Assembly (NCBI RefSeq): GCF_009388985.1
Contig: NZ_CP036422.1
Span: 3,548,501-3,612,500 of the forward strand
Length of the DNA: 64,000 bases
From: Halioglobus maricola
Lineage (GTDB): Bacteria; Pseudomonadota; Gammaproteobacteria; Pseudomonadales; Halieaceae
Direction: 5' to 3'
Shown one piece after another: positions 36,225-42,710 of this stretch. Made by a program: the position numbers and the translations under genes. Each line of letters opens with the position of its first letter. Position 1 is the first letter of the stretch. The notes below the pieces were generated by a model. It searched no databases. It saw only the letters and a program-made list of their open reading frames with translations, and was not told the DNA's origin.

Positions 36225-36401
36225 ATGTACATCCAACGCACCCTGCTACTGACCCTGGTCGTTCTGCTCGTGTGCTTCCCGTTTATCGCCGACTGGCTAA
36301 CCAGTGACTTTAGTGCCTGGCATCGCCCTTATCTGGTGTGGAGCTTCATTATTTTTATCGCCTGGCTCAGCCAGCGTTCTCGGCACAGCGATGAGCTTTA
36401 G
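36225..36401 (+). CDS. small two-TM protein upstream of cbrA (PA4724.1-like)
   Basis: 58 residues: MYIQRTLLLTLVVLLVCFPF (TM1), IADWLTSDFSAWHRPY, LVWSFIIFIAWLSQ (TM2), RSRHSDEL. A comparably placed small ORF sits between gluQRS and cbrA in Pseudomonas (CbrX). GGGGAATTGCC precedes the ATG. Its last 11 bases overlap the cbrA start, so cbrA translation is likely coupled to it. Confidence 0.8.
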   Translation: MYIQRTLLLTLVVLLVCFPFIADWLTSDFSAWHRPYLVWSFIIFIAWLSQRSRHSDEL

Positions 36402-39345
36402 TCTTACCCAGATCCTGCTGCTGGTCGCGTGCTACCTCTCGGTATTGTTCGCCATAGCACACCTGGCGGAACGCGAGATCATTCCTCGAGCCATCAGTAG
36501 CCACCCACTGACATATGTTCTCTCGCTCGGGGTTTTTGCCGGCGCCATGGCCAGCAACGCGGTCATCGATGTAGCCTATCGCTACGGCTACAACTTTTTA
36601 CTCTACTACTGCGGCATTGGCCTGGTGTTCCTGCTCGGCGCCCTGATACTGATCCCGGTGCTACGCCTGTCCAGGGTCTACCAGCTGGCGTCGCTCGCCG
36701 ACATGCTGGCTTTTCGCTTCCGCAGCCCCCGCGTCGGAGCAGCCATCACGATCACCATGTGCATTGCCCTGCTGCCACTGCTGGCCCTGCAGATTCAGGC
36801 CATCGGCGACAGTGTCCACTACCTCTCCGGGCACAACATCTCAGAGACTCACTCCGACGTTCACCACGACTCAGTAGCGCTGGTCGTATGCCTGGTGATC
36901 ATTGTCTTCGCGATCCTGTTTGGCACCGGTCACGCCTCTTCGCGTAAGCGCAATACAGGCCTTGTGACTGCGATGGCTTTCGAATCACTGGTCAAGCTCG
37001 CCGCCCTGATTGGCCTGATGATCGCCGTGGTCTACCAGGTATTCGAGGGGCCCGAACACATGGCCCAGTGGCTGCGAGACTACCCGCCAGTAAGGCAACA
37101 ACTGACCACCCAGCTAAGCTTCGAGAACGCCCATACCCTACTGCTGGTTTTCTTCGCCGGGGCGGTGTGCATGCCCCACATATTTCACATGATGTTTGCA
37201 GAGAACGCCGAGAGCGAGCACCTACATGCCGCGTCCTGGGGCATTCCTCTCTATCTGATGCTCCTGAGCCTGCCGATACTGCCACTGGCATGGGCAGGTA
37301 TGGTGCTTGAACACCCCATGCCCATGGCTTACTCGGGGCTCGCGGTGGGCCAACACCTCAACTCGCCTCTCGTGTCGGTGATGGCTTTTGTCGCCACACT
37401 GTCCGCCGCCAGCGCCACTATTGTGGTCACCACCCTCGCACTCGCCAATATGTGCCTCAACCACCTGGTGTTGCCATCTGGCCTATTGAGGCTCGCCGAA
37501 GAAACCGACATCTACCGCCCGCTCCGGCACATTCGCAGGCTTCTGATTGCTGTCCTTATTCTCTCGGGCTACGCGTTCTACTTCACCCTGGCCGATAGCC
37601 AGAGCCTGACGGCACTGGCCCTGGTCGCATTTGCCGGTACCCTCCAGTTCTTACCCGGTGTGATCGCCACGCCCCACTGGCCACGCGCTAATCGCCGGGG
37701 CCTGCTCGCCGGTCTCACCGGCGGCCTGGCCACCTGGTTTACGCTAATCATGCTGCCGGCTACGCAGGGCCAGGCCCAGCTACTGGGCTATCTGTTTTCG
37801 TCTCTCGCGGCAGACCAGTTGAGTATTTGGGCCATGGCAACCATGCTGTCACTAGGCGTAAACGTGGCGCTCTTTGCATTGGTTTCACTGACCTCCGAGT
37901 CGACACCGGATGAGCGCATTGCCGCTGAGATCTGCTCGATGGACGAGCTCTCGCGGCCGACGCGACAAATCCTGCCACTCACCTCCGCCGCACAATTTGC
38001 CGAGCAACTCGCCCCTGCACTGGGCCATACCGCCGCCGCAGGCGAAGTTGAACGCGCACTCGACGAGCTGCGCTTTCAGCCAGATGAGAGCCGGCCGTAT
38101 GCCCTGCGTCGCCTCCGCCGCAGGATCGAAGCCAATCTTTCGGGCTTGTTGGGCCCCGCGATTGCCCACAGCATCATTGAGCGGGCCATCCCGTTCCGCG
38201 ATAGCGGCACTGAGGACATCAACCTGATTGAACGAAATCTGGATTCTGGCCAGGTGCAGTTTACCGGCCTGGCCGCGGATCTCGACAATCTGCGCCGCCG
38301 CTATAGAGAAACCCTGGAACAGCTCCCCATCGGCGTTTGCTCCATGGGTACCGACGGCGAGATGCTGATGTGGAATGACGCCATGGAAGCGATCACCGGT
38401 GTCGCCGCGAGCGAGGTACAAGGCTCACTCCTCTCCACACTGCCTGCCCCATGGCAGCAGTTGCTGGCCGACTTCCAACAAAGCAAAGACAACGCAGTGC
38501 TCAAAACCGACGTGACGACGGATCCCGCCGAGCCCAGCTGGGTCAGCCTGCATAAATCCGGTGCGGCAGGTGGCGACACCATCATTCTGGTGGAAGATAT
38601 CACGGCCTACGAACTCCTCGAGGCGGAGCTGTTACACAACGAACGCCTCGCTTCAATAGGCCGCCTGGCCGCCGGGGTTGCACACGAGATCGGCAATCCC
38701 GTCACTGGTATCGCCTGCCTGGCGCAAAACCTGGAGTACGCCGACGACCCGGAAGAGATAGCCCTCACTGCGCAGGACATCCTTAAACAAACCGGCAGGG
38801 TAACCAAGATCGTCGAGTCCCTGGTGAACTTCTCCCACGCCGGCTCCAATAGTGAATCAATCGAGCTCGGACCCTGCAATCTCGCGGACTGTATCGACGA
38901 AGCCATTCATCTGCTGACGCTGGATCGGGACGCACAACTGGTGACTTACAGCAATCACTGCGACCGTGAACTGGTAGTGCTCGGTGACAGCCAGCGCCTG
39001 CTACAGGTGTTCGTAAACCTGATCGGCAACGCCCGGGATGCCTGTGATGATAGGGGACATGTGCAGATCCAGGCCTATCCCAAAGACGACGTGGTGCTCG
39101 TCGACGTAGATGACAATGGCAGCGGCATTCCAGTGGAATTACAACACCAGGTGTTTGAGCCGTTTTTTACGACCAAAGATCCCGGATCGGGTACCGGCCT
39201 CGGTCTGGCCCTGGTCTACAGCATCATGGACGACATGGGCGGCTCGGTGCAGCTAACCAGCCCACTGCAGGAGGGACCTCGCCCCGGCACCCGCTTCACC
39301 CTGACACTTGCTACCAGTAGTTACGGTATTGAGTTTGAAGTGTAA
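36391..39345 (+). CDS. cbrA: CbrA sensor histidine kinase with sodium/solute-symporter domain
   Basis: 984 residues, essentially the length of Pseudomonas CbrA. Residues 1 to about 490 form a multi-TM SSS (SLC5-like) transporter domain, beginning [21 protein letters not shown] linker (about 525-640), a PAS domain ([21 protein letters not shown]) and a kinase core follow: H box [18 protein letters not shown] (His765), N box [12 protein letters not shown] boxes [11 protein letters not shown] and [14 protein letters not shown]. With CbrB it senses carbon/nitrogen balance, histidine in pseudomonads. ATG 36391 overlaps the preceding small ORF; upstream in-frame start 36304 is not conserved. Confidence 0.95.
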
Positions 39346-39432: not shown

Positions 39433-40866
39433 ATGCAGCAAATTCTCGTTGTTGAAGACGAAACCGTCATTCGCACTGCCCTGCGTCGTCTACTCGAGCG
39501 CAGCAGCTATGAAGTGAGTGAGGCCGGCTCCGTGCAACAAGCGGAAGCCGAATTCAGCTTTGGGGATTTCGACCTGATTATCAGTGACTTACGTCTACCT
39601 GGGGCACCGGGCACCGACCTGATCAAAAAGGCTGGCGACGTTCCTGTCCTGATCATGACCAGCTACGCAAGCCTACGCTCCGCCGTAGATTCAATGCGTA
39701 TGGGCGCTGTAGATTACATCGCCAAGCCCTTCGACCACGCCGACATGCTCAGCGCGGTAGAACGCATTATCGCCGACCATCCGACCGCCCGCGCAGAACA
39801 GCAGAAAGAGAGCCAGCGCAAAGCGCTCGATGCTGGCAACGGCGCCGGCATCGTCGGCAAATGCCCCGCCATGCTGGACCTGTTTGAACATATCGGCCGT
39901 TTCGCGCCGACCGAGTCGACCGTTCTCGTGCTCGGCGAAACCGGCACCGGCAAGGAGTTAGTTGCCCGCAGTGTTCACCAGCGCAGCAGCAGGGCGGAGA
40001 AAACGCTTATATCCGTCAACTGCGCGGCGATTCCTGACACCCTGATCGAATCAGAACTGTTCGGCTACGAAAAAGGGGCCTTCACCGGCGCCAATACCAG
40101 CCGTATGGGCCTGATCGAGGCCGCCGACGGCGGCACGCTGTTCCTCGACGAAATTGGCGAACTGCCGATGGAAGCCCAGGCACGCTTGCTGCGCTTTATT
40201 CAGGAAGGCGAGATCCGTCGCATTGGGTCAGTTCACTCGCGCAAGGTCAACGTTCGCCTGATCTGCGCCACCCACAGGAACCTGCAACAACTCTCCGCCG
40301 AGGGCCAATTCCGCCAGGATCTGTACTACCGTATCAACGTGCTGCGCCTGTCTTTGCCGCCCCTGCGCGAACGCGGCAAGGACATCCTGCACCTGGCCGA
40401 GAAGATGGTGGAGTCCCAGTCCCATAAACTGGGACGCCAGGGAATGCAGTTGGCGCCCAAGGCCATCCAGGCCATCACTACCTACCAATGGCCCGGCAAT
40501 GTCCGCGAGCTGGAACACGCGATCGAGCGCGCTGTGGTCCTGACCAGTGGCACTGAGATCGACAATGAAAGCCTGGGCATTGATCTGGAGCTGGTAAACA
40601 TTAACCGCATCCGCGGCCAGGATGGTATCGCAGCCACACCCATGCAGCGCACAAGTACCGCCAGCGAGCCGCAGGAAGACCTCTCCCTGGAAGACTACTT
40701 CCAGCGTTTCGTGCTGGAACACCAGGACTCCATGAGCGAGACCGAACTGGCCCAGAAACTCGGTGTCAGCCGCAAGTGCCTGTGGGAGCGGCGCCAGCGC
40801 TTTGGCATCCCCCGCAGCAAGGGCGGCGGTACGACAAGGCGGCGAAAAACCGCAAACGAGGGCTGA
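39433..40866 (+). CDS. cbrB: CbrB, NtrC-family sigma-54 response regulator
   Basis: 477 residues. The receiver has EDE near residue 8-10 and phospho-acceptor Asp52 (LIISDLRLPG). The AAA+ domain has GETGTGKELVARSVH (Walker A), EKGAFTGANTS (sigma-54 contact loop), DGGTLFLDEIGELP (Walker B) and PGNVRELEHAIERA. The C-terminus has a Fis-type helix (MSETELAQKLGVSRKCLWERRQRF). It activates the CrcZ-type sRNA promoter that follows. A short inverted repeat, GTTGTacACAAC, lies just upstream in the 87-bp cbrA-cbrB gap. Confidence 0.95.
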   Translation: MQQILVVEDETVIRTALRRLLERSSYEVSEAGSVQQAEAEFSFGDFDLIISDLRLPGAPGTDLIKKAGDVPVLIMTSYASLRSAVDSMRMGAVDYIAKPFDHADMLSAVERIIADHPTARAEQQKESQRKALDAGNGAGIVGKCPAMLDLFEHIGRFAPTESTVLVLGETGTGKELVARSVHQRSSRAEKTLISVNCAAIPDTLIESELFGYEKGAFTGANTSRMGLIEAADGGTLFLDEIGELPMEAQARLLRFIQEGEIRRIGSVHSRKVNVRLICATHRNLQQLSAEGQFRQDLYYRINVLRLSLPPLRERGKDILHLAEKMVESQSHKLGRQGMQLAPKAIQAITTYQWPGNVRELEHAIERAVVLTSGTEIDNESLGIDLELVNINRIRGQDGIAATPMQRTSTASEPQEDLSLEDYFQRFVLEHQDSMSETELAQKLGVSRKCLWERRQRFGIPRSKGGGTTRRRKTANEG

Positions 40867-40868
40867 AA

Positions 40869-40921
40869 GTAACGTTACCCTACCCCCGCGCAGTTACGAA
40901 ACACGGGGTAGGATGGTAACA
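40869..40921 (+). promoter_or_regulatory. candidate CbrB enhancer region (GTAAC/GTTAC repeats)
   Basis: A 10-bp palindrome GTAACGTTAC (40869-40878) is followed by GTTACGAAACAC-N10-GGTAACA (40893-40921). The outer arms GTTACCCTACCCC and GGGGTAGGatGGTAAC also pair. It lies about 75-130 bp upstream of the sigma-54 promoter, a normal enhancer distance. It resembles the TGTTAC...GTAACA pattern I recall for CbrB sites in Pseudomonas, though with 18 bp between half-sites. Confidence 0.6.
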
Positions 40922-40996
40922 ATACTGCTATTTCAGCATATTCTAGCAATCGCTAAAAACACTTATCTCATTGTTTTTTATAGATATTTCTAATAT

Positions 40997-41013
40997 TGGC
41001 ACAACACCTGCTA
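40997..41013 (+). promoter_or_regulatory. sigma-54 promoter of the CrcZ-like sRNA
   Basis: TGGCAC-AACAC-CTGCTA has the GG at -25/-24 (40998-40999) and GC at -13/-12 (41010-41011) separated by exactly 10 bp, differing from consensus TGGCAC-N5-TTGC at one base. Predicted start point near 41023. Confidence 0.8.
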
Positions 41014-41022
41014 TTCTACGCC

Positions 41023-41316
41023 CGCATCACAAATAAAAATAACAGATGCGCTAATAAAAATAATACTCTTCACTATGGACCTGGATGGGGAAGTACTGCT
41101 TCCCCCTCAATTTCATAACAATAATTTCCCCACAGGTAGGGTTTGGCTAACGATGATGTAGGCCATTGCCCTGTTTGTAACTTATTAACAGTTATGAGCA
41201 ATAGGGCATTTAACAAAACTATGTTTTGATAAGTGTCTATAAAAATAATAGCACCTGAGAAATAATAATAACTCTCGATGTGAGACCTGGATGGGGAAAA
41301 CTTTGTTTTCCCCATT
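41023..41316 (+). ncRNA. crcZ: CrcZ-like Hfq/Crc-sequestering sRNA (two modules)
   Basis: The position (cbrB-pcnB gap, downstream of a sigma-54 promoter) is that of CrcZ. The predicted RNA starts with a CGCATC...GATGCG hairpin enclosing an A-rich loop with AAATAAAAATAAC. Further A-rich words fit the Hfq/Crc AAYAAYAA motif exactly or nearly: AACAATAA (41117-41124), AATAATAATAA (41261-41271), AATAAAAATAA (about 41053). A 15-nt sequence GACCTGGATGGGGAA occurs at 41078-41092 and 41284-41298, each preceded by an A-rich tract and leading into a hairpin: GGGGAAG/CTTCCCC (41087-41105) and GGGGAAAAC/GTTTTCCCC (41293-41313). The second is the likely terminator. It may be one transcript with two modules or two tandem sRNAs. 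Ends are inferred. Confidence 0.75.
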
Positions 41317-41323
41317 ATTCATT
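41293..41323 (+). terminator. probable terminator of the CrcZ-like sRNA
   Basis: GGGGAAAAC, a 3-nt TTT loop, and GTTTTCCCC form a perfect 9-bp stem, followed by ATTATTCATT. The weak U-rich tail suggests partial termination; readthrough would enter pcnB. Confidence 0.6.
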
Positions 41324-41396
41324 CCACTACCCTAAACCGCGCCGCCCAAGCTCAGCGCCAGACGTTTGTGTTAGACTGCGCGCCTGCTATTGCCCC

Positions 41397-42710
41397 GTGA
41401 CACAGGCTGATCATTCCTTGAACGTAATCCCCCGGGACCAACATTGTATTTCGCGCAAAAACATCAGTGACAGTGCGCTGAAGGTTATGTCGCGTCTGCG
41501 CAGCGCTGGCCACCAGTCTTACCTGGTGGGAGGCGCCGTGCGCGACCTCTTGCTGGGAGGCCACCCCAAAGACTTTGACATTGCCACTGATGCCACGCCG
41601 GAAGAAGTCCACCAACTGTTTCGCAACTCACGCATCATCGGCCGCCGCTTCCGAATTGTGCACGTCCGCTTCGGCCGCGAGATCATCGAAGTCACGACGT
41701 TCCGCGGTCATCATGAGAACGGCGAGGACAGCGCCCGCGCCAACAGCGGCAATCACTCACGCCAGTCCGCCAGCGGGCTACTCCTGCGCGATAACGTATA
41801 CGGGACCCTGGAAGAAGACGCGGTGCGCCGCGACCTGACAGTCAACGCCCTTTACTACGACTCTGGCACCTTCGAAGTGTACGACCATGTACACGGGCTT
41901 GAGGACCTCGAGAACAGGCAGATCTGCATCATCGGCGAACCAGATGTTCGTTTCCGCGAAGACCCCGTAAGAATGCTGCGTGTCGTGCGCTTCGCCGCCA
42001 AGCTGGACTTTGGCATCGATGACGCTACGGCACAGGCCATACCGGAGTGCGCCCACCTGCTGCGCGAAATACCTTCGGCGCGCCTGTTCGACGAGTTCCT
42101 CAAACTGTTTCTGTCGGGATACGCTGCCGCGACCCTGGAGCAGCTGTTGCGCCACGACCTGCTCAAGTACCTGTTCCCCGAGACCAGCGCACTATTACTG
42201 GAAGACGAACATTACCTCGCCCTGATGCGCGCAGCGATGGCCAACACTGACCAGCGCATTGCTGAAGACAAGCCAGTGACGCCGGCCTTTTTGCTCGCCG
42301 CCCTGCTCTGGCCTGTAGCCAGCCGGCTGGCCGCGCAACTAGAGGCCCAGGGCACACCCCCCATCCCCGCCATGCATGACGCCGCACAACAAACAATTGC
42401 TGAGGCGGTGCAATTCATCTCCATCCCGCGCCGCTTTAGCCAGCCCATGCGAGAGATCTGGGAATTTCAACTGCGCCTGAAGAAACGCCAGGGCAAGAAA
42501 GCCGCCGACCTGGTCGAGCAGCGCCGCTTCCGCGCGGCTTACGACTTTCTTCTGCTCCGTGAGCAGGCGGGCGAGGAAACTGATGGCCTGGGCGAATTCT
42601 GGACCCAGTTCCAACACCTCGCACCCAGCGACAGACAACAACAAACAGAAAGCGACGGCCCACGCCGCCGCCGGCGCCCGCGCAGGCGACGCAATAACAA
42701 GAGCACATGA
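41397..42710 (+). CDS. pcnB: poly(A) polymerase I
   Basis: About 437 residues. The nucleotidyltransferase motif YLVGGAVRDLLLGGHPKDFDIATDATPEEV is followed by GRRFRIVHVRFGREIIEVTTF, EDAVRRDLTVNALYYD, EDPVRMLRVVRFAAKLDF, and an Arg-rich tail (RRRRRPRRRRNNKST) that binds RNA. It adds 3' poly(A) tails that promote RNA decay, including of sRNAs. The start is uncertain: GTG 41397 is chosen, but no Shine-Dalgarno stands out and TTG 41418 is possible. The frame is open upstream through the sRNA terminator without homology. Confidence 0.92.
   Translation: MTQADHSLNVIPRDQHCISRKNISDSALKVMSRLRSAGHQSYLVGGAVRDLLLGGHPKDFDIATDATPEEVHQLFRNSRIIGRRFRIVHVRFGREIIEVTTFRGHHENGEDSARANSGNHSRQSASGLLLRDNVYGTLEEDAVRRDLTVNALYYDSGTFEVYDHVHGLEDLENRQICIIGEPDVRFREDPVRMLRVVRFAAKLDFGIDDATAQAIPECAHLLREIPSARLFDEFLKLFLSGYAAATLEQLLRHDLLKYLFPETSALLLEDEHYLALMRAAMANTDQRIAEDKPVTPAFLLAALLWPVASRLAAQLEAQGTPPIPAMHDAAQQTIAEAVQFISIPRRFSQPMREIWEFQLRLKKRQGKKAADLVEQRRFRAAYDFLLLREQAGEETDGLGEFWTQFQHLAPSDRQQQTESDGPRRRRRPRRRRNNKST

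Follow-up and report, generated by a model that had tools for sequence, protein, structure and literature searches.

Decoy RNAs of the CsrB/RsmZ type, the decoys of CsrA/RsmA, carry a repeated motif. CrcZ of Pseudomonas aeruginosa is likened to decoys of this type in the passages of PMC4063720 used here, where it is a 407-nt RNA with six A-R-N repeats that sequesters Hfq. Additional Crc RNAs such as CrcY are mentioned for P. putida and A. vinelandii in excerpts of a review (PMC8871633), and CbrAB is stated to be exclusive to Pseudomonas and Azotobacter in excerpts of that 2022 review and of a 2018 paper (PMC6296734). Among the matches listed in a search of open-licence literature (titles and abstract openings), there was no report of CrcZ or CbrB in the other genera tried. 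Here, we describe a locus in a 64,000-nucleotide stretch of DNA (the window) from Halioglobus maricola, a member of the Halieaceae whose genome is a single contig of 4.3 Mb. Positions 41023 to about 41325 of the window probably encode a CrcZ-like decoy noncoding RNA, driven by CbrB and sigma-54 and composed of two modules, the second of which would derive from a promoterless tandem copy reached by read-through. Relatives of this locus suggest that the combination of cbrB, a sigma-54 promoter and a CA-motif RNA is more widely spread than the excerpted statements on Pseudomonas and Azotobacter imply, and they make carbon catabolite control by an Hfq/Crc decoy a question that can be tested in marine bacteria, Halieaceae among them.

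The locus begins with a cbrA-like sensor kinase gene (36304-39345, + strand; exact start uncertain), whose product has an N-terminal stretch without a Pfam match followed by PAS, HisKA and HATPase_c domains. It is followed by cbrB (39433-40866, + strand), encoding an NtrC-type sigma-54 activator with receiver and Sigma54_activat domains, by a gap of 530 bp, and by pcnB (41397-42710, + strand; TIGR01942, 527 bits) and folK. The start of pcnB is uncertain; its open frame extends back to a GTG at 41280, and the TIGR01942 match starts at residue 10 of the protein read from 41397. The putative RNA gene occupies the crcZ position, directly 3' of cbrB and 5' of pcnB; a mechanically called ORF of 80 codons on the minus strand (41073-41315) overlaps this region. 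Three CbrB-type sites with a spacing of about 20 bp lie upstream on the + strand (GTTAC, 40874-40878; GTTAC, 40893-40897; GTAACA, 40916-40921). Behind them, and behind the cbrB stop codon that ends at 40866, lies the well-spaced sigma-54 promoter that a first-pass annotation of this DNA had reported, TGGCACAACACCTGC (GG-N10-GC; 40997-41011, + strand), from which transcription is predicted to start near 41023. Thus, at the level of predicted sites, the locus has the sigma-54 promoter with CbrB sites (TGTTAC/GTAACA, about 20-25 bp apart) expected of a CrcZ-type gene. The middle site is in the forward orientation, which differs from the F-R-R order described for P. putida CbrB sites in the excerpted PMC6296734.

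A 15-mer, GACCTGGATGGGGAA, occurs at 41078-41092 and again 206 bp away at 41284-41298. No third copy with at most one mismatch was found in the 64-kb window, and 100 dinucleotide shuffles gave 0 matches. Its first 14 bases, GACCTGGATGGGGA, have exactly two copies in the genome, both at this locus; among the genome matches listed, none has one mismatch, and all the remaining ones have two. Both 15-mers continue into the 5' arm of a GGGGA hairpin. The A-rich words around them proved to be (A-R-N)n tracts with n of at least 4, of which four were observed in 41022-41325 against 0.22 expected from base-shuffled copies. As in CrcZ, several A-R-N (CA) motifs are thereby predicted to bind the distal face of Hfq. 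The first-pass annotation had noted the A-rich words, the 15-mer pair with its 206-bp distance and a GGGGAA-type hairpin after each copy, all of which hold; its span ended at 41316, which is the last position of the second hairpin stem.

The repeated unit is a module of about 100 nt consisting of two CA motifs, then GACCUG, then a GGGGA hairpin. Module 1 (all features on the + strand) opens with a small hairpin at 41023-41050, in which 41023-41028 pair with 41045-41050 and CA motif 1 (tract 41032-41046) lies mainly in the loop. CA motif 2, AATAAAAATAAT, follows at 41053-41064, and the module continues at 41078-41108 with the conserved GACCTG (41078-41083) and the hairpin GATGGGGAAGT/ACT/GCTTCCCCCTC (41084-41108). 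A less conserved spacer (41120-41231), which folds into hairpins in the predicted structure of the window RNA, leads to module 2. There, CA motif 3 (41234-41255; tract 41241-41252) lies between GTGT and GCAC, CA motif 4 (41256-41277; tract 41258-41272) is in the loop of TGAGA/TCTCG in the window-RNA fold, and GACCTG (41284-41289) with the hairpin GATGGGGAAAAC/TTT/GTTTTCCCCATT (41290-41316) occupies 41284-41316. Across Halieaceae, module 1 has the order CA-loop hairpin, second CA motif, GACCTG, GATGGGGAA-initiated hairpin and pyrimidine-rich tail, and module 2 has the same order of elements. GACCTG is strongly conserved among the families carrying the module. In an alignment of 12 sequences, conservation was highest at the upstream sites and promoter, in the CA motifs and in the two 14-mers, whereas much of the spacer was poorly conserved.

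The locus shares with CrcZ the position between cbrB and pcnB, CbrB-type sites, a sigma-54 promoter, A-R-N tracts and a terminal G-rich hairpin. It differs in size, the window RNA being about 300 nt and built of two modules of about 100 nt (single-module relatives are about 100 nt), whereas CrcZ has 407 nt in the excerpted PMC4063720. It also differs in its number of A-R-N tracts, which is four (two per module) in the window RNA, on average 2.0 in single-module and 3.3 in two-module Halieaceae, and five to six in Pseudomonas-type CrcZ gaps. GACCUG is present in the window RNA and absent from the four Pseudomonas-type loci read. Those four loci match the Rfam CrcZ family (RF01675) with 307-334 bits at the same position, whereas the window locus scores 19.2 bits, below the gathering score of 95; because it falls short of this threshold, we file it as CrcZ-like and not as RF01675. 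Among 13 loci that are not of the Pseudomonas type, seven gave sub-threshold CrcZ matches (19-31 bits) and six gave none. In three of the loci (L102, L054 and L045), the module 1 stretch matches the 3' third of CrcZ (model positions 281-372, 271-380 and 278-377) with 24-31 bits. The RF01675 model also weakly matches Escherichia coli and Thermotoga, and it was dropped as a genome-wide probe for its poor specificity. The systems with CrcY resemble this one in having more than one CbrB-driven decoy RNA, as predicted here; unlike CrcY, the second copy in compact Halieaceae loci lacks its own promoter and seems to be part of a single fused transcript.

By analogy, the RNA would also resemble CsrB/RsmZ in that a motif is repeated, frequently within hairpin loops, and serves to titrate a global RNA-binding regulator. 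Unlike in CsrB/RsmZ, the motif of the window RNA is A-R-N, for Hfq. A CsrA/RsmA site within the 15-mer was considered since CUGGAUG resembles one. Many relatives lack GGA there (GGGTG, GGTTG and CTCCA forms), so the repeated element has no conserved GGA of the kind expected of a CsrA/RsmA decoy, and binding of CsrA is not supported.

The genome encodes the proteins on which a decoy of this kind would act. The best PDB match of its Hfq is 1u1s, which we take to be P. aeruginosa Hfq. Five proteins of the genome match Exo_endo_phos, and one of them is Crc-like (L080, 1453-2217), its closest PDB entry being Crc (4jg3, 213.5 bits), followed by an entry named exodeoxyribonuclease III (206.5 bits) and then by one at 167.7 bits. 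Its gene neighbours a gene read as rph from sequence. For the XthA-like paralogue L076, an exodeoxyribonuclease is closest in the PDB (324.3 bits versus 268.7 for Crc). The residues QE, AD and SDH of L076, presumably catalytic sites, correspond to QD, GN and SSH in L080. Thus, of the two conditions that the first-pass annotation had named as refuting its reading, the lack of Hfq or Crc does not apply, though NCBIfam calls L080 exodeoxyribonuclease III, above its cut-off. Compared with the P. aeruginosa Crc contact residues taken from the consulted part of eLife 43158, L080 conserves R140, R141, E142 and E193 and lacks the RNA- or interface-contact residues K155, M156, R196, R229, R230 and R233. 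Since several contact residues are not conserved, contact and assembly of Hfq, Crc and RNA may differ from those of P. aeruginosa. Crc-like proteins are also present in Halieaceae genomes without a CbrB match at the threshold used.

To place the module among relatives, one genome per species from 84,980 species was searched with a pattern that fixes 21 bases (GACCTGGATGGGGAA, 3-13 bases, TTCCCC). The pattern matched 67 stretches, 28 of which contain two exact copies. Of the 67, 65 are flanked by a CbrB C-terminus upstream and/or a PcnB N-terminus downstream, and the other two (L226 and L240) bear the titles of unrelated taxa. Among the named carriers are Halioglobus, Haliea, Seongchinamella, Parahaliea, Kineobactrum, Luminiphilus, Litorivivens and Dasania. 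Cultured relatives with two modules include Halioglobus pacificus, Seongchinamella and Pseudohalioglobus, and in Haliea alexandrii the spacing of the copies is 95 bp. One stretch titled Verrucomicrobiaceae (L201) has the cbrB-pcnB locus, and its title is probably a wrong assignment.

Of 145 genomes sampled from the order, 124 have a CbrB match at E <= 1e-100; of 120 sampled from the family Halieaceae, 88 have one at E <= 1e-150, the weakest matches of both draws not necessarily being orthologues. Gaps were read in 73 of the 88 Halieaceae genomes; five of the 124 in the order draw are Halieaceae, and 85 gaps were read from the other 119, with 84 long enough to score. Contig ends cut six gaps (L097, L101, L106, L131, L145 and L164). 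A sigma-54 site with at least two CA motifs in the 420 bp behind it was present in 71 of the 73 Halieaceae gaps and in 71 of the 84 gaps from the rest of the order, compared with 0 and 0 on the reverse strand and means of 0.025 and 0.15, respectively, in shuffles; the RNA pattern is missing from 13 of the 84. Upstream, CbrB-type sites occur as pairs in 61 of these 71 Halieaceae gaps and 65 of the 71 other ones, and one shuffle of each gave 0. As a useful negative control, 18 CbrB-like matches outside the order (L289-L306; E <= 1e-125, 52-61% identical; 229 genomes) were examined over the 0.9-1.5 kb fetched downstream, and pcnB or the RNA pattern was found in 0 of 18. A covariance model of the module, whose 21 training rows match by construction, found 92 of 390 genomes of the order at E <= 0.01, of which 69 also reach E <= 1e-4. 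In a class-wide draw, it found 12 of 274 at E <= 0.01; of the 11 besides the own genome, the best had an E value of 2.2e-4, and seven match in the hairpin part only.

The Halieaceae gaps, whose search the first-pass annotation had proposed, contain two modules in 44 of 73 cases, one in 24 and none in five by the module pattern. In six of the 24 one-module gaps (L006, L044, L064, L090, L093 and L097), a degenerate second copy was recognized by eye. Four of the five pattern-negative gaps (L091, L095, L098 and L099) carry a GAACCTGG variant of module 1, and the fifth (L101) is truncated where its contig stops. In other families, the module was identified by pattern and stem in 20 of 85 gaps, once in 16 (including L021, L025 and L031, with GACCTCCAGAGGGG) and twice, with two promoters, in four; it was not found in the remaining 65, those of the Pseudomonas type included. 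The duplicated 3' module of the first-pass annotation is thus a real unit, single in 16 of 20 other-family carriers, but it extends beyond the 3' end and takes in the CA motifs as well.

The spacing of the copies and the sites between them bear on how the second module arose. In the two-module Halieaceae gaps, the copies are 95-301 bp apart in 41 gaps and 607-681 bp apart in three (L107, L108 and L121), which belong to one genus. These three retain CbrB-type sites before the second unit, and the second unit of L108 has a promoter-like TTGGCAT without the GC element (all by eye). We read the L108 sequence as a sigma-54 promoter that decayed after tandem duplication, and the three gaps as a snapshot of promoter loss. 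In the four other-family gaps with two modules (L008, L011, L014 and L030), each unit is complete, with CbrB-type sites and a sigma-54 promoter. We infer a history in which the whole gene was duplicated in tandem, the second promoter was lost and the spacer shortened, leaving what would be one read-through RNA. In a PcnB tree of 76 rows, the two-module state needs at least three changes, with several deep forks open; the tree excluded five rows in which pcnB was not found (L097, L101, L106, L107 and L110) and three that were too short (L041, L108 and L121), and its label "two" includes copies judged degenerate by eye. Module losses are suggested by this tree because the single-module L091, L095, L098 and L099 fall inside its two-module part. 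L100 (two modules) and L109 (one) group with other families.

The first-pass annotation had left the choice between tandem sRNAs and one RNA with two decoy modules, and the sequences favor the latter, because the second copy lacks a conserved promoter and that of one relative has decayed (by eye). We regard as unlikely that hairpin 1 fully terminates a first RNA and that a second RNA starts from its own promoter, missed by consensus scans. The complete tandem units with CbrB-type sites and sigma-54 promoter in L008, L011, L014, L030 and L123 would fit two such sRNAs, as would hairpin 1, where the RNAs of single-module relatives probably end. However, the 41 compact gaps have no credible second promoter; the only sigma-54-like sites that the promoter pattern detected between their modules are the TGGCAG-TTGC of L058, L060 and L065, rejected as a second promoter because we read them by eye as one arm of a TGGCAG/CTGCCA stem also found in L051 and L092. 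In addition, no sigma-70-like site was found in 40800-41500, and in six genomes the copies are 95 bp apart, too short for upstream sites, promoter and RNA. Neither hairpin is followed by a strong U-run, which makes the 3' ends uncertain. In the 12 positions after hairpin 1, the mean T count is 7.25 in single-module and 5.74 in two-module Halieaceae, an excess that is suggestive only.

For the single RNA with two modules, the proposed mechanism follows P. aeruginosa by analogy. When good carbon sources are exhausted, CbrB would turn on the RNA, whose A-R-N (CA) motifs would bind the Hfq distal face together with Crc, so that catabolic mRNAs would be released from repression. Module 2, a tandem copy of the whole gene, would be made by read-through past the first hairpin because its promoter was lost, and the products would be an RNA of about 100 nt together with one of about 300 nt, or mainly the latter. 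On the simplest reading, the number of modules would set the decoy capacity, and modular duplication may be a way in which decoy RNAs grow.

The fold has a z of -6.28, the spacer fold being weak (mean z of -1.3 over 19 species). On the Halieaceae alignment, the CA-hairpin stem of module 1 has five pairs with 73% of cells paired, and changes on both sides were seen in all five. Over the whole named structure of module 1, both-side changes occurred in 59 cells, compared with 28.0 in shuffled alignments (as high in 0 of 500) and with 14-37 after sliding; for module 2, the counts were 30 cells, 13.8 shuffled (0 of 500) and 11-17 slid. Relatedness among sequences can, however, lift such counts above those of shuffles even where there is no structure. 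The number of pairs with both-side changes showed no excess over shuffles (7 versus 7.2 in module 1, 407 of 500; 7 versus 5.6 in module 2, 76 of 500), nor did further pair types (37 of 500 and 221 of 500, respectively). In module 2, 51% of cells are paired in the CA stem (GTGT/GCAC) and 95% in the terminal hairpin; the minimum-energy fold of the window RNA does not contain the GTGT/GCAC stem. The CA-hairpin stems were chosen by hand and then counted, which biases towards them, and RNAalifold on two alignments (A2 and A3) recovered the terminal hairpins only.

GACCTG lies outside the conserved hairpin, yet some of its bases pair in the minimum-energy fold of the window RNA, the GA of copy 1 sitting in TATGGA/TTCATA and the ACCTG of copy 2 pairing with CAGGT at 41133-41137. 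The CAGGT/ACCTG pairing was rejected as a family feature since it is not enriched (5 of 32 versus 8.8 expected). An outer stem around GACCUG was supported by a permutation test in Halieaceae module 2 only (2 of 2,000), and not in module 1 (545 of 2,000) or other families (1,489 of 2,000); it is therefore not claimed in general. Going by conservation, GACCUG is not a CsrA site; it is also unlikely to be coding sequence, and its pairing within the RNA is not generally conserved. Its conservation hints at a role beyond Hfq titration. We tentatively consider, as a possibility and not as the expected outcome, that GACCUG with its hairpin is a second functional site that docks a protein or an RNA, that these are two-headed RNAs whose modules are copied and fused, and that CbrAB-CrcZ-Crc extends across most of the order. 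If so, the CA motifs would titrate Hfq/Crc in Halieaceae and neighbouring families while GACCUG recruits another partner.

That the conserved GACCUGG is instead the seed of a base-pairing sRNA acting on mRNAs, with Hfq only as its chaperone, is quite improbable. The strong conservation of GACCTG and its presence in units on other contigs of one genome (G045) would suit a seed, but arrays of CA motifs under CbrB control are typical of decoy RNAs, and Pseudomonas-type CrcZ occupies the same position without the GACCUG element. The G045 units also bear on a cis-acting pcnB leader or terminator in place of a trans-acting RNA. The RNA does lie upstream of pcnB in the gaps where both are visible. 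However, beyond its cbrB locus, G045 carries two more complete units on other contigs (L286, 391-454, - strand; L287, 877-939). Both units have CA motifs, GACCTGGATGGGGA, a sigma-54 site and three CbrB-type sites, and they disfavor a role tied to pcnB, although the assembly they come from has a completeness of 83% and a contamination of 4%. Length and copy number also vary freely, and control by CbrB and sigma-54 fits crcZ, which leaves a cis element with very little probability. Least credible is a small protein starting MDLDGE, encoded in module 1 by a short mechanical ORF (41075-41161; ATG GAC CTG GAT): ATG or GTG does stand just before GAC in 52 of 68 Halieaceae first modules, but this ORF was rejected because a Shine-Dalgarno-like 4-mer precedes none of the 52 starts, the frames run from 10 to 111 codons with no shared end (two do not end within the gap), 13 copies carry ACG, a start codon is missing there from 43 of 44 second modules and all 24 other-family modules, and one-base hairpin insertions disrupt the frame.

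Two further observations concern other RNAs. The additional units of G045 (L286 and L287) are possible analogues of CrcY/CrcX. In three of the four Pseudomonas-type loci, a match to the Pseudomonas sRNA P36 of Rfam (46-63 bits) lies upstream of the crcZ match (L122, 141-201; L023, 1389-1451; L028, 2945-3005).
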